Origin: Alkalibacter rhizosphaerae
GTDB taxonomy: Bacteria > Bacillota > Clostridia > Eubacteriales > Alkalibacteraceae
Length of the DNA: 64,000 nt
NCBI RefSeq assembly: GCF_017352215.1
Contig: NZ_CP071444.1
Coordinates: 1,984,001 to 2,048,000 of the forward strand
Direction of reading: 5' to 3'
In this document: one piece after another, positions 44,174 to 56,494 of the stretch
Numbering within the stretch: the stretch's first letter is position 1
Layout of the letters: the number at the start of each line of letters is the position of its first letter
Notes under the pieces: model-generated
What the model was told of the DNA's origin: nothing
The model's database searches: none
What the model saw: only the letters and a program-made list of their open reading frames with translations
Position numbers and translations under genes: made by a program

Positions 44174-44215
44174 GAATTTTTAAGCTCAAAAGCTAAAACA
44201 ATGTAACATACACAA

Positions 44216-44255
44216 CCTTAAAAACTTGACATTTAAGGTTGCAATCAATTAAAAT
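44216..44255 (+). promoter_or_regulatory. Island promoter P1 with inverted-repeat operator
   Basis: Operator CCTTAAA-N3-TTGACA-TTTAAGG (44216-44238, extended to perfect 9-bp arms at 44214-44240) has the -35 TTGACA in its centre. An 18-bp spacer leads to TAAAAT (44250-44255). Drives the first URO-D-like gene. Confidence 0.8.
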
Positions 44256-44391
44256 TGTAATTGTACAAAAGTTTAAAGATTTAGTGCAGATTGTAAAAAT
44301 GTAAATTGTGAATAGAGGTGATTCGGCGAGAAATGCAAACGCATCGTATGAAAATCTTATGTTTAGTTCACTTTTTAAAGGAGGATGTGTA

Positions 44392-45537
44392 ATGACAAAT
44401 CAACAAGAGCAACGTAATCAATTATTTAGAGACATTTGGCAAGGAAAGCGCCCGGCAAGAGTGCCGATTCAAGCTGGTGTAACAGAAGATTTTGCAGTTG
44501 ATTATCTTGGATATAATGCTAAAAGAGATTTATACAATCCCAAATTGACTTATGAAATGGCTGATAAGATGGCAGAATTGATTGATGCGGATACGCTTCC
44601 GATGGCACCTTTTTCACAGGCGGCTATTTACAGGTATGTTAAGCAAGCATTTATGGTACCTGGAGCAGATGGCTTCTTTCAACATCCAAATATTGCGCCA
44701 ATGGAGTATAATGAGTATCCTGAGTTCATTAAAGATCCATTTGAGTTTATTGTTAAAAAGATCCAACCCAGAGTTTTTGGAATACTTCAAGATGATCCTG
44801 AATTTGGACAATTAAAGATTAATGTGGCTCGCACTGTACTTAAATCCAAATTTATAGGGCTTGGACCGAATCTCGCGGATAAACATCAACGAGCAAATAT
44901 TCTTCAATCACCAATAATATTATGGGCTCCATTTGATTTCATTGCAGATTATATTCGAAGTTTTTCTACCATTTTATCCGATATCAGAAGAAATCCTGAG
45001 TGGGTAATACAAGCTTGTGAAGCTGCATGTGACTATCAAATCGAACAAGTGAAGATGCTTCCAAAACCAGATCCAGATAAGATTACTACTTTGTTGATGC
45101 CGCTACATATGGCACCCTTCATGAAACCTAAGGATTTTGAAAAATTTTATTGGCCTTCGTATCGAAGATCAGTTGAAGAATTTCAAAAACTGGGTTTTAA
45201 TATCTCGACGTATGCTGAAGAAGATTGGACTCCACACCTAGATGCATTTAATGATCTTCCGGGTAGGTGCTGTATCCAATTTGAATATCCGCATCCTCAA
45301 GATGTGGTTGACAAAATCAGCAAAAAACATATATTTTCTACCATGTATCCTACAGCATTATTAAGAGAAGGAACAAAACAGCAATGCATTGACAAAGCGA
45401 AAGAGTATCTTGATATTTTGATGCCTGGCGGAAATTACATTTTTGCGCCACAAAAAGTACCGCTAAGAAGGAATGATATAAAAATTGAGAATTTACAATC
45501 AGTTATAGAATTTGTTAGAGTATATGGCGAGTATTAA
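44392..45537 (+). CDS. URO-D-family corrinoid methyltransferase-like protein 1
   Basis: TIM-barrel protein of 381 residues in the uroporphyrinogen decarboxylase/MtaA/CmuA superfamily. Features: RPARVPIQAGVTEDFAVDYLG near the N-terminus, SPIILWAPFDFIADYIRSFSTILSDIRRNP in the middle, FMKPKDFEKFYWPSYRR, then the active-site strand with AEEDWTPHLD. At this strand MtaA-type enzymes have a zinc HxC motif; here it is ExDW-TP. I infer a substrate:corrinoid methyltransferase (MT-I) of a demethylase system. Start 44392 has AAAGGAGGATG; an upstream GTG at 44308 has none. Its own transcription unit with the downstream microprotein. Substrate unknown. Confidence 0.75.
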   Translation: MTNQQEQRNQLFRDIWQGKRPARVPIQAGVTEDFAVDYLGYNAKRDLYNPKLTYEMADKMAELIDADTLPMAPFSQAAIYRYVKQAFMVPGADGFFQHPNIAPMEYNEYPEFIKDPFEFIVKKIQPRVFGILQDDPEFGQLKINVARTVLKSKFIGLGPNLADKHQRANILQSPIILWAPFDFIADYIRSFSTILSDIRRNPEWVIQACEAACDYQIEQVKMLPKPDPDKITTLLMPLHMAPFMKPKDFEKFYWPSYRRSVEEFQKLGFNISTYAEEDWTPHLDAFNDLPGRCCIQFEYPHPQDVVDKISKKHIFSTMYPTALLREGTKQQCIDKAKEYLDILMPGGNYIFAPQKVPLRRNDIKIENLQSVIEFVRVYGEY

Positions 45538-45570
45538 ATTAAATCCAACAATTGATTATGGAGGTGTATC

Positions 45571-45714
45571 ATGGATAAGGAATTTAAACCTGTTCTTACA
45601 AGAGAAGAATTGATCGAAAGATATAATTTGTCTGAGGATGACCAAGTTTATTTGCTGGATCTTTTTGTTGAAGTTGAGCAAGCAGTGTACAGACATCTAT
45701 CGTATCATCTATAA
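45571..45714 (+). CDS. Microprotein of 47 residues after methyltransferase 1
   Basis: ATG at 45571 with the strong site GGAGGTG; encodes MDKEFKPVLTREELIERYNL followed by SEDDQVYLLDLFVEVEQAV and a short tail. Acidic, predicted helical, no cysteines, no membrane segment. It lies 33 bp after the methyltransferase gene and before a clear terminator, so it is cotranscribed. I do not recognise the family. A subunit or regulator of the methyltransferase is possible. Confidence 0.6.
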   Translation: MDKEFKPVLTREELIERYNLSEDDQVYLLDLFVEVEQAVYRHLSYHL

Positions 45715-45721
45715 ATAGAAT

Positions 45722-45775
45722 AGAGAATTAGCATGATTGCAATAAGTAGATGTCATGTTAATTCTCTTTCTTTTG
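45722..45775 (+). terminator. Intrinsic terminator after the microprotein gene
   Basis: AGAGAATTAGCATG, loop, CATGTTAATTCTCT followed by TTCTTTT; one bulged base in the stem. Confidence 0.75.
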
Positions 45776-45875
45776 GCTAATCATTTCGAAAAAAACTAGC
45801 ATTTAAACATTAGAGTCTATCCGCTTTTTAAACTTATAGCGTTGCAACAAACAACTCCACAATCATTAAATAAAA

Positions 45876-45905
45876 TTGCACTTTCACAAATACTTATGTT
45901 AAAAT
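45876..45905 (+). promoter_or_regulatory. Probable promoter of the tetR gene
   Basis: TTGCAC, 18-bp spacer, TAAAAT. It has the same spacing as the other island promoters but lacks the CCTTAAA/TTTAAGG repeat. Confidence 0.5.
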
Positions 45906-45931
45906 AGAGTAAATTAGTGGAGGAAAAATAG

Positions 45932-46615
45932 ATGGCAAAAACATCGCAGGGAATCGAAACAAAGCGTTTACTTTTAAAAAGTTCTAGCAAATTGTTTTGC
46001 AAATATGGTTATAATAAAACAAAAATGCAATTAATAGCTGACAATACTGGTATAACTATAGGAAGTATAGGATATTATTTTAGAAAAAAGGAAGACATTG
46101 CTGGAGAATTGTTAAAAAGATATATTTCAAAAATTTATCGATTTATTTTACAGCATAGCGACGGACCAATCGACAGCTTTACCTTGCATGTAACAGCCAG
46201 TTTGCCTTATTATAAAAATATTTACAAAAATAAAGCGACTCGAAAATTTTACTATGAATTGATAACAAGTGGATCTTTACACTCAGATGTGAATTCTAAT
46301 AATTCATTTAGAAAAATGATGGATAATTTGAATCGAAAAATTATTAAGGAGAATGGCGTTGTTTTAGATGATTTCAGAAAAACTGCTGTTACAATTTTTA
46401 ACTCAGGTGGACGTAACGCAATGATCTTAAAACTTATGGAAAATTATTTTGATGTTGATGAAATCGATGAAGCAATCAACTATATTGGAGTAGGTACTGG
46501 TTCAGTTTTGGGTGTACCTCAAGATAAGATAGGTATAGCCATAGATTATTGTAATTCTTTTTACAAAATACATCAACAGGAGTTAGATGGATTTTGTGTT
46601 TTGGAAAAATATTAA
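45932..46615 (+). CDS. TetR-family transcriptional regulator
   Basis: Regulator of 227 residues. The N-terminal HTH (about 10-55; TKRLLLKSSSKLFCKYGYNKTKMQLIADNTGITIGSIGYYFRKKEDI) is a clear TetR domain. The C-terminal ligand-binding region is helical and family-specific. The gene sits between the first methyltransferase unit and the methyl-THF methyltransferase, with its own promoter and terminator. It is the only regulator in the island, so it is the best candidate for binding the inverted repeat that overlaps four promoters here. Its own promoter has no such repeat. Site GGAGGA before the ATG. Confidence 0.88.
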   Translation: MAKTSQGIETKRLLLKSSSKLFCKYGYNKTKMQLIADNTGITIGSIGYYFRKKEDIAGELLKRYISKIYRFILQHSDGPIDSFTLHVTASLPYYKNIYKNKATRKFYYELITSGSLHSDVNSNNSFRKMMDNLNRKIIKENGVVLDDFRKTAVTIFNSGGRNAMILKLMENYFDVDEIDEAINYIGVGTGSVLGVPQDKIGIAIDYCNSFYKIHQQELDGFCVLEKY

Positions 46616-46665
46616 ATTATTAAATGCTTGATAACAAAAAATAGATTGTTCGTTAAATTATTTGT

Positions 46666-46700
46666 AACCGTCTCTGTTTAGGGCGGTTTTTTGTTTTTTT
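46666..46700 (+). terminator. Intrinsic terminator after tetR
   Basis: AACCGTC, loop, GGGCGGTT followed by a T-rich tract. Confidence 0.65.
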
Positions 46701-46720
46701 GATAGTCGTCACAAGAATTA

Positions 46721-46760
46721 CCTTAAAATCTTGACATTTACGGCAAAAGAAGGTTAAAAT
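46721..46760 (+). promoter_or_regulatory. Island promoter P2 with inverted-repeat operator
   Basis: CCTTAAA-N3-TTGACA-TTTACGG (46721-46743; one mismatch in the right arm), 18-bp spacer, TAAAAT (46755-46760). Drives the methyl-THF methyltransferase gene. Confidence 0.75.
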
Positions 46761-46804
46761 TATAAAAAGAGTGATAATACAAAAAACACTAAAGGAGAAG
46801 AGAA

Positions 46805-47617
46805 ATGATTATTATTGGTGAAAAAATTAATGGTGCTATACCGGTTGTAAAAGAGGCTATCGTAAAGCGGGATGCTGAATTTATTAGAAACAGAGCATTG
46901 AAGCAAGCAGAAGCTGGTGCTGATTATATTGATATATGTGCCTCCACAGATCCTGAAGTAGAAGTTGAAACATTAAAATGGTTGATTGAAATTGTTCAAG
47001 ATGCAGTTGAAATAGCAATTTGCATAGATAGTCCAAATCCTTTATTTATTCAAGAAGTTATACCAATTGTAAACAAACCGGGGATTATAAATTCTGTGAG
47101 CCTAGAAACAGTTGAAGGGACCAATAAAGATAAATGTGAGATCGTATTTCCTTTAATACAAGGAACTGAGTGGCAGGTTATAGCTTTAACATGTGATAGT
47201 GTTAACGGAACCCCTAAAGACGTTGAAACCAGAGTGCAGATTACTCGAGGCATTATTGAAAAAGCAAAAACTTATGACATCAAACTGGAAAACATACACA
47301 TTGACCCTCTAGTTATGGCCTTGGCTACGGATCTGAAATCTCTAACGAATTTTGTTAAAACGATGAATATTATTAAAAGCGATTTTCGAGAAATCAAATT
47401 TACTTCTGGTCTTAGCAATATCTCTTTCGGAATGCCTAAAAGAAAAATTATCAATCAAAACTTCATGACTATAGCAATATATGAAGGAATGGATTCAGCG
47501 ATTATTGATCCACTAAACAAGGAAATAATGGGAGCGATTTTTGGTACAGAGGCTCTTCTAGGTAGAGACAAATTCACTCGAAGATATAATTCAGCTGTGC
47601 GAAAAGGGATTATTTAG
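46805..47617 (+). CDS. Methyltetrahydrofolate:corrinoid methyltransferase (MT-II-like)
   Basis: Pterin-binding TIM-barrel protein of 270 residues, related to AcsE, MtvA and the MetH pterin domain. GEKINGA at the start, GADYIDICASTDPEVE, ICIDSPNP, INSVSLE, THIDPLVM-like IHIDPLVMALATD and the FTSGLSNISFGMPKR signature followed by N-F..A...G.DSAIIDP are the family landmarks. It would move methyl groups between the corrinoid protein and tetrahydrofolate, feeding catabolic C1 flow. It is monocistronic: own operator-type promoter P2 and terminator at 47626. Site AAAGGAGAAG. Confidence 0.88.
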   Translation: MIIIGEKINGAIPVVKEAIVKRDAEFIRNRALKQAEAGADYIDICASTDPEVEVETLKWLIEIVQDAVEIAICIDSPNPLFIQEVIPIVNKPGIINSVSLETVEGTNKDKCEIVFPLIQGTEWQVIALTCDSVNGTPKDVETRVQITRGIIEKAKTYDIKLENIHIDPLVMALATDLKSLTNFVKTMNIIKSDFREIKFTSGLSNISFGMPKRKIINQNFMTIAIYEGMDSAIIDPLNKEIMGAIFGTEALLGRDKFTRRYNSAVRKGII

Positions 47618-47625
47618 TGCCTAAT

Positions 47626-47663
47626 ATAAAAAGCAATCTGGAAAAATCCAGATTGCTTTTTAT
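47626..47663 (+). terminator. Intrinsic terminator after the methyl-THF methyltransferase
   Basis: ATAAAAAGCAATCTGG, A-rich loop, CCAGATTGCTTTTTAT; A/T-tailed on both sides. Confidence 0.85.
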
Positions 47664-47744
47664 ATAACCTTAATCATATTAAGTTCGTAAATATCTTCAT
47701 ATTGTGACAACAAACAATAAAAATAAACAAAATTTAAAAACTTG

Positions 47745-47784
47745 ACTTAAAATATTGACATTTAAGGCCAGTATAGTGTAATAT
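47745..47784 (+). promoter_or_regulatory. Island promoter P3 with inverted-repeat operator
   Basis: ACTTAAA-N3-TTGACA-TTTAAGG (47745-47767; one mismatch in the left arm), 18-bp spacer, TAATAT (47779-47784). Drives methyltransferase 2, a microprotein and the symporter genes. Confidence 0.78.
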
Positions 47785-47914
47785 TGCAATAAATACAACA
47801 TTTATAATATTGTAAAATAAAATGTAATATAATAAAAAAGAGGTGATAGATGTTGGTATAGATTCGAGCTTAATTATTCATCAATGAATATTGAATTTTG
47901 GGAGGATGATCAAA

Positions 47915-49123
47915 TTGCTAAAGCAAGAAATAAAAGTGAAATATGACAAGAAACTAAAATTGTTTTCAGATATTACTAGTGGGAAAACACCAGAAAGAGT
48001 CCCTTTGTGTCCATTCATAGAAACGTGGGCATTTCATTACGCAGAAATCAGTGTTAAGGAAGCGTTTTTGAAAAATAATGAATTACTGTTTCAAGCATAT
48101 AAAAAGATTTGTGATGACATTGAAATCGATGCAGTAGCAAGTATTTCAAACACAGTACCGTTTAAAGCGGGGCTGAATTTTGCAAGTAAAAATAATTCGA
48201 ATAGTGATGGTTTTATTGGAGCAGGCCTATACACGGTTTCAGATGATGGCGTGCAAATCAGAGGATCACATGGACATTTGATGGAGGGAGAAGAGTTAAA
48301 AGAGTTAGCCAAAGATGCAAAAACATATTTTGCAAATGTGATTGCGCCCAAAAAATTTCCGATATTGAATCAGAGTTTAGAGAAAAATGTTGAATTAGTG
48401 CAAGATGCACTAAAAGATATTAAGGATTGGATGGCATACAACGGAGAAGTCATTAATCGATTGGAAACAGAAGTTGGGATACCAGTAATTATTAAAATGA
48501 CAAATTACAATCCCATGGATGTAGTATTAGATTATTTGAGAGATTTCGTTGGAATTTCAAGAGATATCCGTAAACGTCCAGATGAGTTATACGACGCTTG
48601 TGAAGCTATTTATGATTTTGTCAGCGAAATGTTTTTTGATTCTAAAGTTCCGGTAGATGATAAGTGGCTATTCTCCCCACTTCATATTCCAACATATATG
48701 CGGCCTAAAGACTTTGAGAAGTTATATTTTCCCTTCATGAAAAGATATGTAGAAGAATTTGGGGTGAAGAGAGGCTACACATTGCATTTCTTTATGGAAA
48801 ACGACTGGACGCCTTATCTTGATATTCTTCAAGATCTTCCTAAAACAAGCAAAGTAATCGGTTTATTTGAACTGGGCGATCTTAAATACATTAAAGAAAA
48901 GATGAAAGATCGAATGATTTTTCATGGTGGCTTGTCAGCAAATGAACTAAAGTTTCTAAGTATTCCAGAGCTGAGAGATAGTGTCAAGAAAACGTTTGAT
49001 GACTTGGCTCCAGGAGGTCAGTTTATTTTTGGAACAGATTACAGTTTGATGAATTTAAATGATGGAAAACCCGAAAATTTAATCGAAGCAATGGCATTCG
49101 CGAAAGATTATGGAAAATATTGA
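47915..49123 (+). CDS. URO-D-family corrinoid methyltransferase-like protein 2
   Basis: TIM-barrel protein of 402 residues in the URO-D superfamily. It contains GKTPERVPLCPFIETWAF, VVLDYLRDFVGISRDIRKRPDEL, PTYMRPKDFEKLYFPFMKRYVEEF, the active-site strand FMENDWTPYLDILQDLP and FGTDYSLMNLNDGKPENLIEAM. It shares the ExDWTP motif and the LPxx...FE pattern with proteins 1 and 3, and lacks the HxC zinc motif. TTG at 47915 is chosen because GGGAGG lies 9 bp upstream; an in-frame ATG at 47906 is too close. A longer frame from TTG 47891 is unlikely. Candidate substrate-specific methyltransferase. Confidence 0.72.
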   Translation: MLKQEIKVKYDKKLKLFSDITSGKTPERVPLCPFIETWAFHYAEISVKEAFLKNNELLFQAYKKICDDIEIDAVASISNTVPFKAGLNFASKNNSNSDGFIGAGLYTVSDDGVQIRGSHGHLMEGEELKELAKDAKTYFANVIAPKKFPILNQSLEKNVELVQDALKDIKDWMAYNGEVINRLETEVGIPVIIKMTNYNPMDVVLDYLRDFVGISRDIRKRPDELYDACEAIYDFVSEMFFDSKVPVDDKWLFSPLHIPTYMRPKDFEKLYFPFMKRYVEEFGVKRGYTLHFFMENDWTPYLDILQDLPKTSKVIGLFELGDLKYIKEKMKDRMIFHGGLSANELKFLSIPELRDSVKKTFDDLAPGGQFIFGTDYSLMNLNDGKPENLIEAMAFAKDYGKY

Positions 49124-49140
49124 AAAAGTTTTAGATTTTG

Positions 49141-49156
49141 TTGATTAATTAATCAA
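49141..49156. repeat. 16-bp perfect palindrome TTGATTAATTAATCAA
   Basis: Located just after the methyltransferase 2 stop codon. AT-only apart from the outer G/C; possibly a weak terminator stem or a binding site. Confidence 0.4.
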
Positions 49157-49233
49157 TAAACGAAACACAGTTTTTACTTATCATTAGAGTGCCGTGTTTA
49201 TAATCCTAATGAGTTAAGGAGGTGAAATAACTT

Positions 49234-49359
49234 ATGGAACATAGCTTTATGGATGCACTGCAAATAGTAGAAGAAAATTTAGTCAGAAAGGGGATTTCTA
49301 AAGAGGAAGCAAAGGGACTAATAAAAAAACTGATTTGGATTTTGGTATGTAGATTATAA
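49234..49359 (+). CDS. Microprotein of 41 residues after methyltransferase 2
   Basis: ATG at 49234 with the strong site AAGGAGGTG; encodes MEHSFMDALQIVEENLVRKG followed by ISKEEAKGLIKKLIWILVCRL. Amphipathic helix, basic at the C-terminus. It lies in the P3 unit between methyltransferase 2 and the small membrane protein (16 bp downstream). Not homologous to the microprotein at 45571, but in the same position relative to its methyltransferase. Function unknown. Confidence 0.6.
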   Translation: MEHSFMDALQIVEENLVRKGISKEEAKGLIKKLIWILVCRL

Positions 49360-49375
49360 GATGGGAGGATCAAAA

Positions 49376-49615
49376 ATGTCAAGTGAACCTAACAAAAGAT
49401 TCTTAAAAAGCAGTGCTGGTAATGTGTTACTTGCAGTTGTTCTTTTGGTGGTTTTTCAAGTAATTCTCCATAATGATTTTTGGAATTGGACAGATCCAAA
49501 AATTTATTTTGGGTGGTTGCCAAGTAATGTACTGTATCGAATTGTCATGGTAGGTATAGTTATTCCAATAACAATGCATATTGTAACAAAAATATCTTGG
49601 CCAATTCCAAAATAA
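49376..49615 (+). CDS. Small membrane protein paired with the sodium:solute symporter
   Basis: Protein of 79 residues with two membrane helices (about 20-37; about 55-74) separated by FWNWTDPKIYFGWLPSN. Small two-helix proteins (for example DUF997/YhdT or DUF3311) often precede SSS symporters and are thought to be accessory subunits. It lies 21 bp upstream of the symporter start. The ATG at 49376 has GGGAGG. Exact family not assigned. Confidence 0.7.
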   Translation: MSSEPNKRFLKSSAGNVLLAVVLLVVFQVILHNDFWNWTDPKIYFGWLPSNVLYRIVMVGIVIPITMHIVTKISWPIPK

Positions 49616-49636
49616 AAATTTGAAAGGAGATAAGAC

Positions 49637-51133
49637 ATGGATGCAACTGTAGTTTTAACTCTTATTATCGTATTCATTTATCTAATAGGCACAGTAGCTA
49701 TTGGGATTCGAGCTGCAAGTGCTTCAAAGGTAACAACGATTGGTGACATTTTTACGTCAAGTCGATCTCTTGGAATACTAGCTCTGGCTTTTGCTATATT
49801 TGGGTCCCAAATTACAGCTTTTGGTATTCTAGGCGGTCCTGGAGTTTCGTATAATCTTGGATACACGACTTTAGGTTATTTATTAGGGGTTTCCATTACG
49901 GCGCCGATCGGATTTTGGATATTTGGTAGCAGGGCATGGATGCTTTCGTCGAAATTTGATTATGTTACCCCAGTACAATTCTTTAAAGATCGATTCAATG
50001 ATAATAATGCATCACGATATGTTGTAGCAGCAGCTCAAATTATTTTAATGGTACCGTATGTTTTAATTCTTGGAATAGGAGCGGGAAATGTCTTAAATTC
50101 TGTAACGAATGGTGTTGTACCGTATTGGTTGGGTGCCTTGATCATATTGATCGTTTGCACGTTTACAGCTTACTCCGGTGGGATGAAAGGCACAGCTTGG
50201 ACAAACATATTTCAAGGTTTTATCATGCTCCTTGCAATGCTGGTGTTAACAGTCATCGTTTATTATGCATTAGGTGGCGGTGCAGCTATAACAGCACAAC
50301 TTCCTGAGAATATGATCAGCTTAGGTGGTCAAGGTGTTCAGAACTGGAAACAATGGACTTTCTATAGTATGTTGGCAACCGGGATGTCGAATGGTGTTTT
50401 TGGCCATCTATTAATTAGAAATATGTCAGCGGCCCATCCACGTACGCTTCAGCTTAACCAAAAAGTTTATCCAATTTTATCAATTATATTTTGGGTTTTT
50501 GCAGTTTGTTTGGGAACTTGGGGATCTATTGCTATCAAAGGTCTGGTTGGCGCTGAAACGGAAAGCATTGTCCCATTGTTAGCGGCTAGGTTTGCACCCC
50601 CATGGATGATCGGATTGCTGGCGGCTGGTATTTTATCCGCGATCATGTCTACTTGGGATGGAATGATTTTGGTTATGTCTTCAATTTTCTCTGAAGATTT
50701 TTACAAACCAATTGTATTAAGAAGCAAAAAACTTGAATTGAAAGAAGACTTAAAAATCAGTAGGTTTTTCATATTGGTAATATCCGTATTGATATATATA
50801 TTGGTATTACTCAGACCCGGAAGTATATTAGCGATTGGTACGTTTTCATTTGCAGGTATGGCTACCATGTTGCCACCCTATTTTGGGTGCATGTATTGGA
50901 AGAGAACGACTAGTTTAGGCGTTATTTTATCATCGATTGTTGGAGTAGGTTCTGCAGCGCTCTGGGCATTCGGTGTTCTACCTGCATCTTCCACATTAGG
51001 ATTTTTCTATGGATTGCCAGCGTTTTTGTTGTCTGCAATTACAATGGTAGTGGTTTCCCTATTAACAAAACCAGCAAAGCAAGAAACTATAGATGTGTTC
51101 TTTTCGGCATTTTCAGATGTTTATGAGGATTGA
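49637..51133 (+). CDS. Sodium:solute symporter (SSS family)
   Basis: SSS transporter of 498 residues with about 13 hydrophobic helices. TFTAYSGGMKGTAWTNIFQGFIMLLAMLVL is the SSS signature helix pair, and GILSAIMSTWDGMILVMSSIFSEDFYK is the second conserved block including Na+ ligands. It is in the PanF/ActP-like range, so the substrate may be a carboxylate. It lies in the P3 unit behind methyltransferase 2, suggesting it imports the methylated substrate. Site AAAGGAG. Confidence 0.9.
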   Translation: MDATVVLTLIIVFIYLIGTVAIGIRAASASKVTTIGDIFTSSRSLGILALAFAIFGSQITAFGILGGPGVSYNLGYTTLGYLLGVSITAPIGFWIFGSRAWMLSSKFDYVTPVQFFKDRFNDNNASRYVVAAAQIILMVPYVLILGIGAGNVLNSVTNGVVPYWLGALIILIVCTFTAYSGGMKGTAWTNIFQGFIMLLAMLVLTVIVYYALGGGAAITAQLPENMISLGGQGVQNWKQWTFYSMLATGMSNGVFGHLLIRNMSAAHPRTLQLNQKVYPILSIIFWVFAVCLGTWGSIAIKGLVGAETESIVPLLAARFAPPWMIGLLAAGILSAIMSTWDGMILVMSSIFSEDFYKPIVLRSKKLELKEDLKISRFFILVISVLIYILVLLRPGSILAIGTFSFAGMATMLPPYFGCMYWKRTTSLGVILSSIVGVGSAALWAFGVLPASSTLGFFYGLPAFLLSAITMVVVSLLTKPAKQETIDVFFSAFSDVYED

Positions 51134-51193
51134 TTTAATGATTGTGTCACCGTGATTCTGGATCACTTTTCGAAAATAATATAAATAAACTAA

Positions 51194-51239
51194 TTCTAGC
51201 CTTAAATACTTGACATTTAAGGCTAGAATAGCGTAATAT
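51194..51239 (+). promoter_or_regulatory. Island promoter P4 with the longest inverted-repeat operator
   Basis: CCTTAAA-N3-TTGACA-TTTAAGG core (51200-51222) is extended to perfect 13-bp arms (TTCTAGCCTTAAA at 51194-51206 and its complement at 51216-51228). 18-bp spacer, TAATAT (51234-51239). Drives MFS transporter, methyltransferase 3 and corrinoid protein. Confidence 0.85.
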
Positions 51240-51396
51240 TATAAATGTAATGAGATTATAATATTTTATATATGGCCATATATATAAAAAAGTTTAAAAA
51301 GGAGGAATGCGATCAGAAATGGAAAAACTAATTTCATCATTTTGAACTAGTCGTGAGTTAGAATTAAAAAATTACAAATTAGGGAGGGAATTTTAA

Positions 51397-52674
51397 ATGT
51401 CGGAAAATACGAACAACAAGAAAACGACCGAAGAAGTGGTTCAAGTAACAGCGTATAGCGTTCTTATAGCTTTTCTTTGCATGATGACGTTTGGCGTATC
51501 TTTTGTCTCAAGAAATGTGTGGTCTTCAACGATAGCTTCGGAAAGTGCATTAGAAGCGCTGGGAATAACTTTAGTCCAAGCCGGCGGTATCGCCTCAGCA
51601 TTCTACATTGGTTACGTGGTGTCAAACTTTTTCTCCGGATTTTTTGTTGATAAATTGGGTCCAAGAATTACGTTGGCGGCAACAGCTTTAGGTACTGGCT
51701 TGTTTACAGTGCTTATTCCATTAGTTTCTGGATACTGGGCGATTTTTGCACTACGTGTTTTAGCAGGAGTTGCAGCGGGCCCATTGTTCGCAGGAATCTC
51801 AAAAATGAACTACGGATGGTTTCCGGATCGAGTAAGAGCAACTGTGGTCGGTTTCATGATGTCAGGACCAGCCGTTGGTATGGCATTTGCGTCCATCGTA
51901 TTTACACCCATGGTTGCAACGAGAGGATATAAAACTGCATTTGTTTATGCAGGGATATTGACTATAATCGTAGGCGTAATAGTATTAATTTTCATGAAAG
52001 AAAAAGGATTATCAAGAGGCTCAAGAGGAGTCGAGAAAAGTACAGAAGAAAAAGCAGCAGAAGTAAAAAATGCCATTAAAGTTTTCACAACCAAAGACTT
52101 TATGATAAACACAGTAATGCATACAATTCTAGTTGGTGCTGGACAAGGTCTTCAGACATGGATTTTAGCTTACTTGATTATTGGAAAAGAAATGACTCCA
52201 GCGGTAGCAGGGATGATTTTTGGTAGTGCTTCATTGGTATCTCTTGTAACCAATATACTTTCAGGTACTGTATCGGATATCTTAAAGACTAGAAAATGGA
52301 TTGTTATAATCGCTTCTGTAGTTACATTTATCTTTATGTATATGTATCGAGCTTCTACATCGGTGACAGCTCTGACTGCTGTTACTATACTAATGACGAT
52401 TGCAAGAGGTTTCCAAGGAACTGCCAGCAATGCAATGCAGACAGAGAGAGCTAAAGGTCCAAACGCAGGTAAAGTTATGGGTTGGTACAACGCGGTTTGT
52501 CAATTGGGATCCATCATCTACCCTATTATAACCGGAGCGGTTTTGGCAGCTACACAAAACTATTTTGCAGTTATAATGATTTTGGCTGGCTCATTCTTGG
52601 CAGTTGGTGTGTTAGGATTGTTTATAGATGATACTTACGTTTCGAGACCTAAAGAGATAAAGAAAACAGCTTAG
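51397..52674 (+). CDS. MFS transporter
   Basis: Major facilitator of 425 residues with 12 predicted helices in two halves. The loop motif GFFVDKLGPRI between helices 2 and 3 is the MFS signature, and RVLAGVAAGPLFAGISKMNYGWFPDRVRATVVGFMMSG resembles anion:cation symporter (ACS) members that move organic acids. It is first in the P4 unit with methyltransferase 3 and the corrinoid protein, so a second uptake or efflux route for the substrate or demethylated product is likely. The ATG at 51397 follows AGGGAGGG; the 5' leader from P4 is about 150 nt. Confidence 0.9.
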   Translation: MSENTNNKKTTEEVVQVTAYSVLIAFLCMMTFGVSFVSRNVWSSTIASESALEALGITLVQAGGIASAFYIGYVVSNFFSGFFVDKLGPRITLAATALGTGLFTVLIPLVSGYWAIFALRVLAGVAAGPLFAGISKMNYGWFPDRVRATVVGFMMSGPAVGMAFASIVFTPMVATRGYKTAFVYAGILTIIVGVIVLIFMKEKGLSRGSRGVEKSTEEKAAEVKNAIKVFTTKDFMINTVMHTILVGAGQGLQTWILAYLIIGKEMTPAVAGMIFGSASLVSLVTNILSGTVSDILKTRKWIVIIASVVTFIFMYMYRASTSVTALTAVTILMTIARGFQGTASNAMQTERAKGPNAGKVMGWYNAVCQLGSIIYPIITGAVLAATQNYFAVIMILAGSFLAVGVLGLFIDDTYVSRPKEIKKTA

Positions 52675-52708: not shown

Positions 52709-54082
52709 ATGTTTAAATCAAAAGAAGTAGAAGAACTTTACAACAGAAGATTAGACAGGTACATGGCTGCGATCAGAATGCAGCCAACCGATCGGGTACC
52801 AATTGTTTTTAACACGACCTATTTTGCAGAAGAGTATTCTGGTTCAACCATTCAAGAGATCGTTTACAGTCAAAAGCACTGGTATGAGTGCGATGCAAAA
52901 TTTGCGAGAGATTTTCCAGAAGTCGATACTTTTCGATCTAATATTGCATATGCCCCCATGTGGGATGCAATCGATAACCGGCTTTACAAGGTACCTGGTA
53001 GAGAAATTCCTCCCAAATCACTTCAGCAATTCGTAGAAGCAGAGCATCTGAAGGTGGACGAGTATCGCGAGTTTATTGATGATCCTGTAGGCTGGAGGTT
53101 CAATAAATATTTCCCAAGAATTTTTGGAGAGTACGATGGTAAAGGTGCCATTCGATCACATGTTGCTTTCTTGAAAATGGGATTTTTACAGGGTATCTTT
53201 GGCGGTATATTGCGAGAAAATGCAGTAAAACTGAAAGAAGAGTATGGTGTAATACCAACCACAAGAGGAGCTTTAACTGCACCTTTTGATATCCTATCCG
53301 ATAATTACCGCGGTTTGCACGGGATTATGCGAGACATGTTTAGAAACAAAGAAGAAGTGAAAGAAGCATGTCAAAAAATTATGGAAATCAATGTGGCTAA
53401 CTGTGCAACAATGGTGGACCCGACGAAACAGCTGCCGATTTTTATTGCAACGCACAAACCGTGTTTTATGTCTCCGAAACAATTCGATGAATTTTATTGG
53501 CCAACTTTCTATGAAGGTATGATGATGTTCATCAATGCTGGCTATAAGTTCAGAGTTTTTTTGGAAGGCGATTGGTCGCCGCATTGGCATCACTTGGCAG
53601 ATTTCCCGAAAGGTTCTGTAATTTTCGATGTGGACAACGAGGCAGATATTTTTAAAGCCAAGGAAGCATTCGGACATAAAAATTTCATTACTGGCGGAAT
53701 TCCAACAGACTTGTTTATCTTTGGAACTACCGAGCAAATGCGAGAAAGGGTAAAATTGCTTTGTGAAACTGTTGGTAAAGATGGTGGTTGGGGACCACTC
53801 GGTGGAGGACATATACCTAATGATGCGAAACCAGAAAACTTGCAAGCAATGATCGATGCAATCAATGAGTTTGGAGTATATGAAGGTCAACAAACACCAA
53901 AGGCACAACCAGCATATGATCAAGATTTGAAACTAGAAATCCCATTTGAACTTCCTGTTATAACACCATGGGAAGAATTCAGAGATGAACACAATTGGGA
54001 CATCGTTGGCAATGAAGAGATGATAAAAGAAACATGGGATAAATACGAGCGAATGGCGTTTTCGTGGGTTTACTTTAAATAA
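52709..54082 (+). CDS. URO-D-family corrinoid methyltransferase-like protein 3
   Basis: TIM-barrel protein of 457 residues, the longest of the three. RMQPTDRVPIVFNTTYFAEEYSG, GALTAPFDILSDNYRGLHGIMRDMFRNKEEV, PCFMSPKQFDEFYWPTFYEG, then the strand FLEGDWSPHWHHLADFPKGSVIFDVD and GGHIPNDAKPENLQAMI. The E-x-D-W-[ST]-P motif is kept. A C-terminal extension of about 70 residues (from TPKAQPAYDQ) is absent in the other two. It lies 17 bp upstream of the corrinoid protein, so it is the best candidate for the partner methyltransferase. Site GGAGGATAGAAG. Confidence 0.75.
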   Translation: MFKSKEVEELYNRRLDRYMAAIRMQPTDRVPIVFNTTYFAEEYSGSTIQEIVYSQKHWYECDAKFARDFPEVDTFRSNIAYAPMWDAIDNRLYKVPGREIPPKSLQQFVEAEHLKVDEYREFIDDPVGWRFNKYFPRIFGEYDGKGAIRSHVAFLKMGFLQGIFGGILRENAVKLKEEYGVIPTTRGALTAPFDILSDNYRGLHGIMRDMFRNKEEVKEACQKIMEINVANCATMVDPTKQLPIFIATHKPCFMSPKQFDEFYWPTFYEGMMMFINAGYKFRVFLEGDWSPHWHHLADFPKGSVIFDVDNEADIFKAKEAFGHKNFITGGIPTDLFIFGTTEQMRERVKLLCETVGKDGGWGPLGGGHIPNDAKPENLQAMIDAINEFGVYEGQQTPKAQPAYDQDLKLEIPFELPVITPWEEFRDEHNWDIVGNEEMIKETWDKYERMAFSWVYFK

Positions 54083-54099: not shown

Positions 54100-54726
54100 A
54101 TGTCAAAATTAGTAGATGCTATAAGAGAATTAGAAGAAAATTTAGTATATAAGATTGTTGATGAAGAAATTGAAAAAGGTGTATCACCAGTTGATATTGT
54201 AGAAGATTGCAATAAAGGATTAGTCGAAGTTGGGAATTTGTTTGCAAGTGGCGAATATTTTCTAACAGAATTAATGTTTTCTGTTGAGATCATGGAAGTG
54301 GTAATGGAAAAAATCAAACCATTGCTTACTGCCAGTGGAGATGGTGTTTCCAAAGGTAAAGTGATAATTGGAACCGTTGAGGGAGATATCCACGATGTAG
54401 GTAAAAACATAGTTGTAAGTTTGCTACGCAGCCATGGATTTGAAGTAATCGACTTGGGAATAGATGTTTCCGTTCAAAAATTTGTAGATGCCGTGAGAGA
54501 ATCTGATGCTAAGATTCTAGGGTTGAGCGCTTTGCTCAATACTACATATCCAGTTATGAAGAATGTTGTTGACGCTTTAAAAGAAGCGGGATTAAGAGAT
54601 AAGGTGAAAGTAATAATCGGGGGTACAATCACGTCTGAGCAAGTCAAAGACCACACAGGTGCCGATGAATTTGCAACACAAGCTATGAAGGGAATTGAGT
54701 ATTGCAACAAGATTTACGGTCATTAA
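54100..54726 (+). CDS. Corrinoid protein (methyl carrier)
   Basis: Cobalamin-binding protein of 208 residues like MtbC/MttC/MtaC. The N-terminal helical cap domain (about 1-85; FASGEYFLTELMFSVEIMEVVMEKIKPLL) precedes the B12-binding Rossmann domain. EGDIHDVGKNIV (His about 98) is the DxHxxG motif supplying the lower cobalt ligand, and GLSALLNTTYPVMKNVVDALKEAGLRDKVKVIIGG completes it. It carries the methyl group between methyltransferases and the methyl-THF enzyme. It is the only corrinoid protein of the island, so it may serve all three. No reductive activator gene was seen. Confidence 0.93.
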   Translation: MSKLVDAIRELEENLVYKIVDEEIEKGVSPVDIVEDCNKGLVEVGNLFASGEYFLTELMFSVEIMEVVMEKIKPLLTASGDGVSKGKVIIGTVEGDIHDVGKNIVVSLLRSHGFEVIDLGIDVSVQKFVDAVRESDAKILGLSALLNTTYPVMKNVVDALKEAGLRDKVKVIIGGTITSEQVKDHTGADEFATQAMKGIEYCNKIYGH

Positions 54727-56273: not shown

Positions 56274-56369
56274 CTTTTCAGCGATAAAGGCAAACCAATC
56301 GAAAGGTTGGGACGCAAAGCCAAGGGTCTTCCCCGGAAACGGGATGACAGCCGGTTACCGAAAGAGAAG
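56274..56369 (+). ncRNA. GEMM-I cyclic-dinucleotide riboswitch aptamer 1
   Basis: Matches the c-di-GMP-I aptamer: GGCAAACC, the GAAA tetraloop stem CCAATCGAAAGGTTGG, GACGCAAAGCC, the GGGTCTT...GGATGACAGCC receptor arm and GGTTACCG. By Vc2 numbering (A47 is the first A of CGCAAAG), position 20 is G, the c-di-GMP type. P1 pairs CTTTTC (56274) with GAGAAG (56364) and is followed at once by T7, so ligand-stabilised P1 could act as a terminator. Confidence 0.9.
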
Positions 56370-56400: not shown

Positions 56401-56494
56401 CTCTTCAGCGACAATAGCAAACCAATCGAAAGATTGGGACGCAAAGCCAAGGGCCTACCCCCGAAAGGGAAAGGCAGCCGGTTGCCGAAAGGAG
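56401..56494 (+). ncRNA. GEMM-I cyclic-dinucleotide riboswitch aptamer 2 (A20 variant)
   Basis: Second aptamer in tandem, with AGCAAACC, stem CCAATCGAAAGATTGG, GACGCAAAGCC, GGGCCTA...AAGGCAGCC and GGTTGCCG. The residue equivalent to Vc2 G20 is A, the change that marks GEMM-Ib aptamers responding to 3',3'-cGAMP. P1 pairs CTCTT (56401) with AGGAG (56490-56494), which is the Shine-Dalgarno region of the next gene, so ligand binding could hide it. Confidence 0.88.

Follow-up and report, generated by a model that had tools for sequence, protein, structure and literature searches.

TetR-family repressors such as QacR, MtrR and TtgR share a TetR_N helix-turn-helix, an all-helical fold and a palindromic operator lying over promoter elements. 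TetR proteins are usually repressors, and many of them autoregulate, a habit that is typical of the family and not defining; QacR-like proteins bind as two dimers per site. The O-demethylase and chloromethane (Cdm) systems of Acetobacterium are built from an MT-I methyltransferase of the URO-D superfamily, a corrinoid protein and an MT-II methyltransferase. The mec cassette of dichloromethane fermenters likewise clusters several MT-I genes with a corrinoid protein, an MT-II and a transporter, and a PocR-type two-component system is its proposed regulator (PMC9768040). For A. dehalogenans, which has 26 methyltransferase systems, regulation was called largely unexplored in a 2026 paper (PMC13222342). 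Our search of the open literature, with subscription journals outside its scope, found no TetR regulator of O-demethylases.

Here we describe an island of Alkalibacter rhizosphaerae (GCF_017352215.1, contig NZ_CP071444.1) within a window of 64,000 nucleotides (1,984,001-2,048,000, forward strand), in which four palindromes are, we predict with high confidence, the operators of a TetR protein that would repress four units until a ligand releases it. Unlike QacR, MtrR and TtgR, this protein is encoded by a gene that is not divergent from its targets and carries no operator of its own, would serve four separate units, and has a ligand domain without a close solved structure (best TM-score ~0.5). 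In contrast to the Acetobacterium systems, a single corrinoid protein and a single MT-II gene here serve three MT-I enzymes, with four promoters among them, and a TetR protein would stand where a PocR-domain two-component system was proposed for the mec cassette (PMC9768040). The mechanism would be ordinary; its setting is new to the literature covered.

Genes of the island

The predicted regulon comprises three MT-I enzymes, one corrinoid protein, one MT-II and two transporters (Table 1). MT1, MT2 and MT3 all match PF01208 above its cut-off, and CdmB, the chloromethane methyltransferase of Acetobacterium, is the sole solved relative of the three at E <1e-3. Judged by these domain assignments, the genes together cover three components of an O-demethylase-type system, namely MT-I, MT-II and the corrinoid protein. 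The genes of the regulon do not include an activating enzyme (RACE/AE).

Table 1. Features of the island, in positions of the 64,000-nucleotide window
Feature	Position	Strand	Description
Putative operator P1	44213-44241	+	Core 44216-44238; -35 TTGACA 44226-44231, -10 TAAAAT 44250-44255; drives MT1
MT1	44392-45537	+	URO-D superfamily corrinoid methyltransferase (MT-I); PF01208 2.3e-9; nearest solved structure CdmB (9rui), PDB 3.3e-16
47-aa small ORF	45571-45714	+	Directly 3' of MT1; Shine-Dalgarno-like site
TetR-family regulator, probable repressor	45932-46615	+	PF00440 1.7e-8, 34.6 bits (cut-off 24); between P1 and P2
Putative operator P2	46721-46743	+	-35 46731-46736, -10 TAAAAT 46755-46760; drives MT-II gene
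MT-II	46805-47617	+	Pterin-binding methyl-THF:corrinoid methyltransferase; NF005719 318 bits (cut-off 259); PF00809
Putative operator P3	47745-47767	+	-35 47755-47760, -10 TAATAT 47779-47784; drives MT2, small ORFs, symporter
MT2	47906-49123	+	URO-D superfamily methyltransferase; PF01208
41-aa small protein	49234-49359	+	Kept after MT2 orthologs
79-aa predicted membrane protein	49376-49615	+	Precedes symporter
Sodium:solute symporter (SSF)	49637-51133	+	PF00474 6.9e-40
Putative operator P4	51193-51229	+	Core 51200-51222; -35 51210-51215, -10 TAATAT 51234-51239; drives MFS-MT3-corrinoid
MFS transporter	51397-52674	+	PF07690 2e-44
MT3	52709-54082	+	URO-D superfamily methyltransferase; PF01208
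Methyltransferase corrinoid protein	54100-54726	+	TIGR02370 4.6e-51, 173 bits, below curated cut-off 215

Small ORFs accompany several of these genes. In five genomes, the gene for MT2 or its ortholog is followed by one for a protein of ~41 aa with the conserved ending A-x2-LI-x-K-x-IW-x-L-(I/V)-CR-(L/I), and more distant small ORFs, including the 47-aa ORF after MT1, trail other URO-D methyltransferases. Neither the 41-aa nor the 47-aa ORF has a Pfam match; the 41-aa type is possibly an accessory microprotein of MT-I. Further downstream, tandem c-di-GMP-I riboswitch aptamers (56279-56362 and 56406-56489; 78 and 77 bits) lie upstream of a secreted transglutaminase-like gene.

Four palindromes centred on the -35 hexamer

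A scan with the pattern CCTTAAA-N3-TTGACA-TTTAAGG, allowing up to three mismatches and using the reversed pattern as control, recovered P1, P2, P3 and P4 with 0, 1, 1 and 0 mismatches, respectively. These are the positions at which the preliminary description had read a shared repeat, and the 18 bp that it counted between each -35 box and a TAAAAT or TAATAT are exact at all four. The perfect pairing that it reported for the first and last copies also stands, but the arms are longer than the 9 and 13 bp given there: counted outward from the 7-bp core, they measure 10 bp in P1 and, around a 7-base loop, 15 bp in P4. P2 and P3 have one mismatch each within their 7-bp core arms. At all four promoters the palindrome has the same 7-9-7 geometry, centred on the -35 hexamer, with half-site centres 16 bp apart, a distance that, by comparison with QacR-like proteins, suggests two dimers per palindrome.

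Such repeats might arise by chance in A+T-rich sequence, or as by-products of the promoter consensus, of duplication or of a terminator, and, read on the minus strand, the P4 repeat does score as a hairpin of the terminator type. However, 100 dinucleotide shuffles of the window gave no match to the pattern at up to three mismatches, and in the whole home genome (one contig, 2,449,552 bp) the only matches at this threshold are the four sites, all at promoters of the one island, with none for the reversed control. This genome-wide scan, which the preliminary description had proposed, agrees with its remark that promoters outside the island show no such repeat, and it yielded no copies at unrelated genes. 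The CC/GG ends of the repeat are foreign to the promoter consensus. The copies are 83-96% identical over the operator and just 26-34% over the 80 bp upstream (P3 and P4, and only these, also have a spacer in common, 83% identical), so the repeat is not the trace of a recent promoter duplication. The terminator reading founders on the position of the site, 5' of the transcription start, and the duplication reading on the unrelated flanks. Uniqueness in the genome, together with conservation of the palindrome in other genomes (see below), refutes an origin by chance or as a by-product, and we give this whole set of explanations practically no weight.

The four promoters have a perfect -35 and a good -10 (10-11 of 12 consensus positions) and should thus be active unless blocked. 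This bears on whether the palindrome is bound by an activator, or by the TetR protein acting as one, with polymerase recruited from a site overlapping the -35. It is general knowledge that some regulators activate from such sites, and no result here points there; the -35 hexamer itself forms the centre of the palindrome, and promoters this close to consensus should need no help. We therefore hold activation to be very improbable and favour repression.

In the P3 operator region (47720-47767), ACTTGAC occurs a second time 15 bp upstream (AAAACTTGACTTAAAATATTGACATTTAAGG); this may be an overlapping copy of the operator or promoter that has decayed. The leaders of the P1, P4 and P3 units are ~130-155 nt long and hold short ORFs with Shine-Dalgarno-like sites (44333-44392, 51307-51345 and 47843-47887, respectively), which may be due to chance; the ORF in the P1 leader terminates in a TAATG that overlaps the MT1 start. 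A search of the island's leaders for riboswitches found none.

The TetR protein

The protein encoded at 45932-46615 contains the TetR_N DNA-binding domain (PF00440 over the cut-off). Its AlphaFold model is all helical (pLDDT 87.8), and Foldseek matches to the model are TetR proteins (e.g., MtrR, AmtR and QacR), with TM-scores of ~0.5 at most. At the promoter of tetR itself we found no comparable operator, the best match having 8 mismatches; the gene is probably expressed steadily. Within the order, the closest homologs of the protein are 31-34% identical, and a phylum-wide TetR profile search yielded no further close ortholog.

The same arrangement in other genomes

We surveyed 67 genomes of the order, including the home genome. 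An MT3 ortholog (66-67% identity) is present in two of the 66 others, G027 and G037, which belong to one genus of a family other than that of the home genome and so amount to about one independent lineage. In both, an MFS-MT3-corrinoid operon is divergent from a TetR gene whose product matches the island's TetR better than any other protein of that genome does (33-34% identity), and the operon promoter carries CAGTAAATACTTGA(T/C)ATTTACGG with the -35 central, the 7-9-7 geometry and a spacer of 17. By sequence comparison, the arrangement of TetR gene, operator and MT3 is conserved across two families. In G037 (4.3 Mb), the window pattern, which was fixed before the G037 site was known so that the scan is not circular, matches once at up to three mismatches, in the ~450-bp gap between the TetR gene and the operon; the chance of the sole match landing there is ~1e-4. 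Shuffled TetR/operon gaps equalled the observed match in 6 of 3000 cases for G027 and 0 of 3000 for G037. A pattern built from the G027 and G037 sites, circular as a test, returns these same sites: in G027 nothing else comes close, and in G037 every other match is far more distant. With one close site per genome, the operator type is limited to one unit in each of the two. Across the six orthologous sites, the half-site CC(T/G)TAAA has T4 and A5-A7 invariant in all 12 arms.

A paralogous TetR group (G040, G027 and G033) also faces a methyltransferase unit, with a 7-9-7 palindrome over the -35 (CCGGAAAAACTTGACTTTTCAGG in G040; the one-base variant TCGGAAAAACTTGACTTTTCAGG in G027 and G033) and a second copy of the palindrome upstream. 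Among 101 relatives, the window pattern has about as many matches outside G000 as the reversed control, and only that of G037 adjoins a TetR ortholog. No such operator was seen with MT3 relatives of 50-57% identity (Thermovorax and MAGs); Thermovorax has the MFS-MT3-corrinoid operon, and the stretch examined there holds no homolog of the island's TetR.

The preliminary description had proposed one repressor covering the four -35 boxes, with this TetR protein as candidate. The TetR ortholog-operator-MT3 operon arrangement in G027 and G037 argues for this assignment, and so do the paralogous group with its matching geometry and the restriction of the operator, within the home genome, to the island. 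The palindromes could instead serve a regulator encoded elsewhere, e.g., another TetR homolog, with the island's TetR controlling something else: the genome has ~25 other TetR homologs and the tetR promoter has no site. The modest identity of the orthologs and a TetR-MFS pair without the 7-9-7 operator in G026, of a third family, also count against the link. The orthologs in two genomes nevertheless directly adjoin the same operator and MT3 operon, and the island's tetR lies between two of the four sites; we consider control by another regulator improbable and retain the island's own TetR as the predicted repressor.

TetR genes and methyltransferases across the genome

Orthologs of MT2, ~70% identical, occur in four other genomes (G003, G049, G027 and G016). 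In the three whose upstream regions were read (G003, G049 and G027), the ortholog is preceded by an MFS gene, which is divergent from the gene of a different TetR (24-29% identity), and no 7-9-7 operator was found upstream. Because these orthologs face other TetR genes without the operator and the home MT2 has that of the island, MT2 probably joined the island's regulon, the direction of the change being read from few genomes.

The home genome has 37 URO-D and 26 TetR matches. For 11 of the TetR matches, a URO-D match is no more than 3 kb away; the expectation is 1.9, and 5000 random placements, which ignore gene clustering, never gave more than 9. Five copies of a different palindrome, AATTAGAY-N4-RTCTAATT (8-4-8), occur in a second island (1478924-1501964 of the genome), where they lie downstream of -10 boxes and near the TetR genes at 1479151 and 1498704 and several methyltransferases. 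Another divergent TetR-methyltransferase pair, at 801-803 kb, has a palindrome with TTGACA on the methyltransferase strand. We give even chances to a general scheme in which the genome assigns methyltransferases to TetR proteins by private palindromes, islands share one operator, and units such as MT2 have switched regulons by gaining a new one.

Predicted mechanism and its implications

In the mechanism that we propose, the TetR protein would, without inducer, bind each palindrome and keep RNA polymerase off the -35 hexamer; once a methylated substrate or demethylation product had released it, all four units would be transcribed together. Near-consensus promoters, a palindrome placed on the -35 and the usual role of TetR proteins lead to ligand-relieved repression by occlusion as the economical reading, in which we infer the binding, the choice of repression over activation, the effector and the substrate. 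A complete pathway for harvesting methyl groups is probably switched on in one step by a single protein. Acetogens and related anaerobes have dozens of methyltransferase systems. A named candidate repressor, four defined operators and a conserved counterpart in another genus offer a direct way in, and the ligand that induces the units should help to pin down which methylated substrate the three enzymes use.
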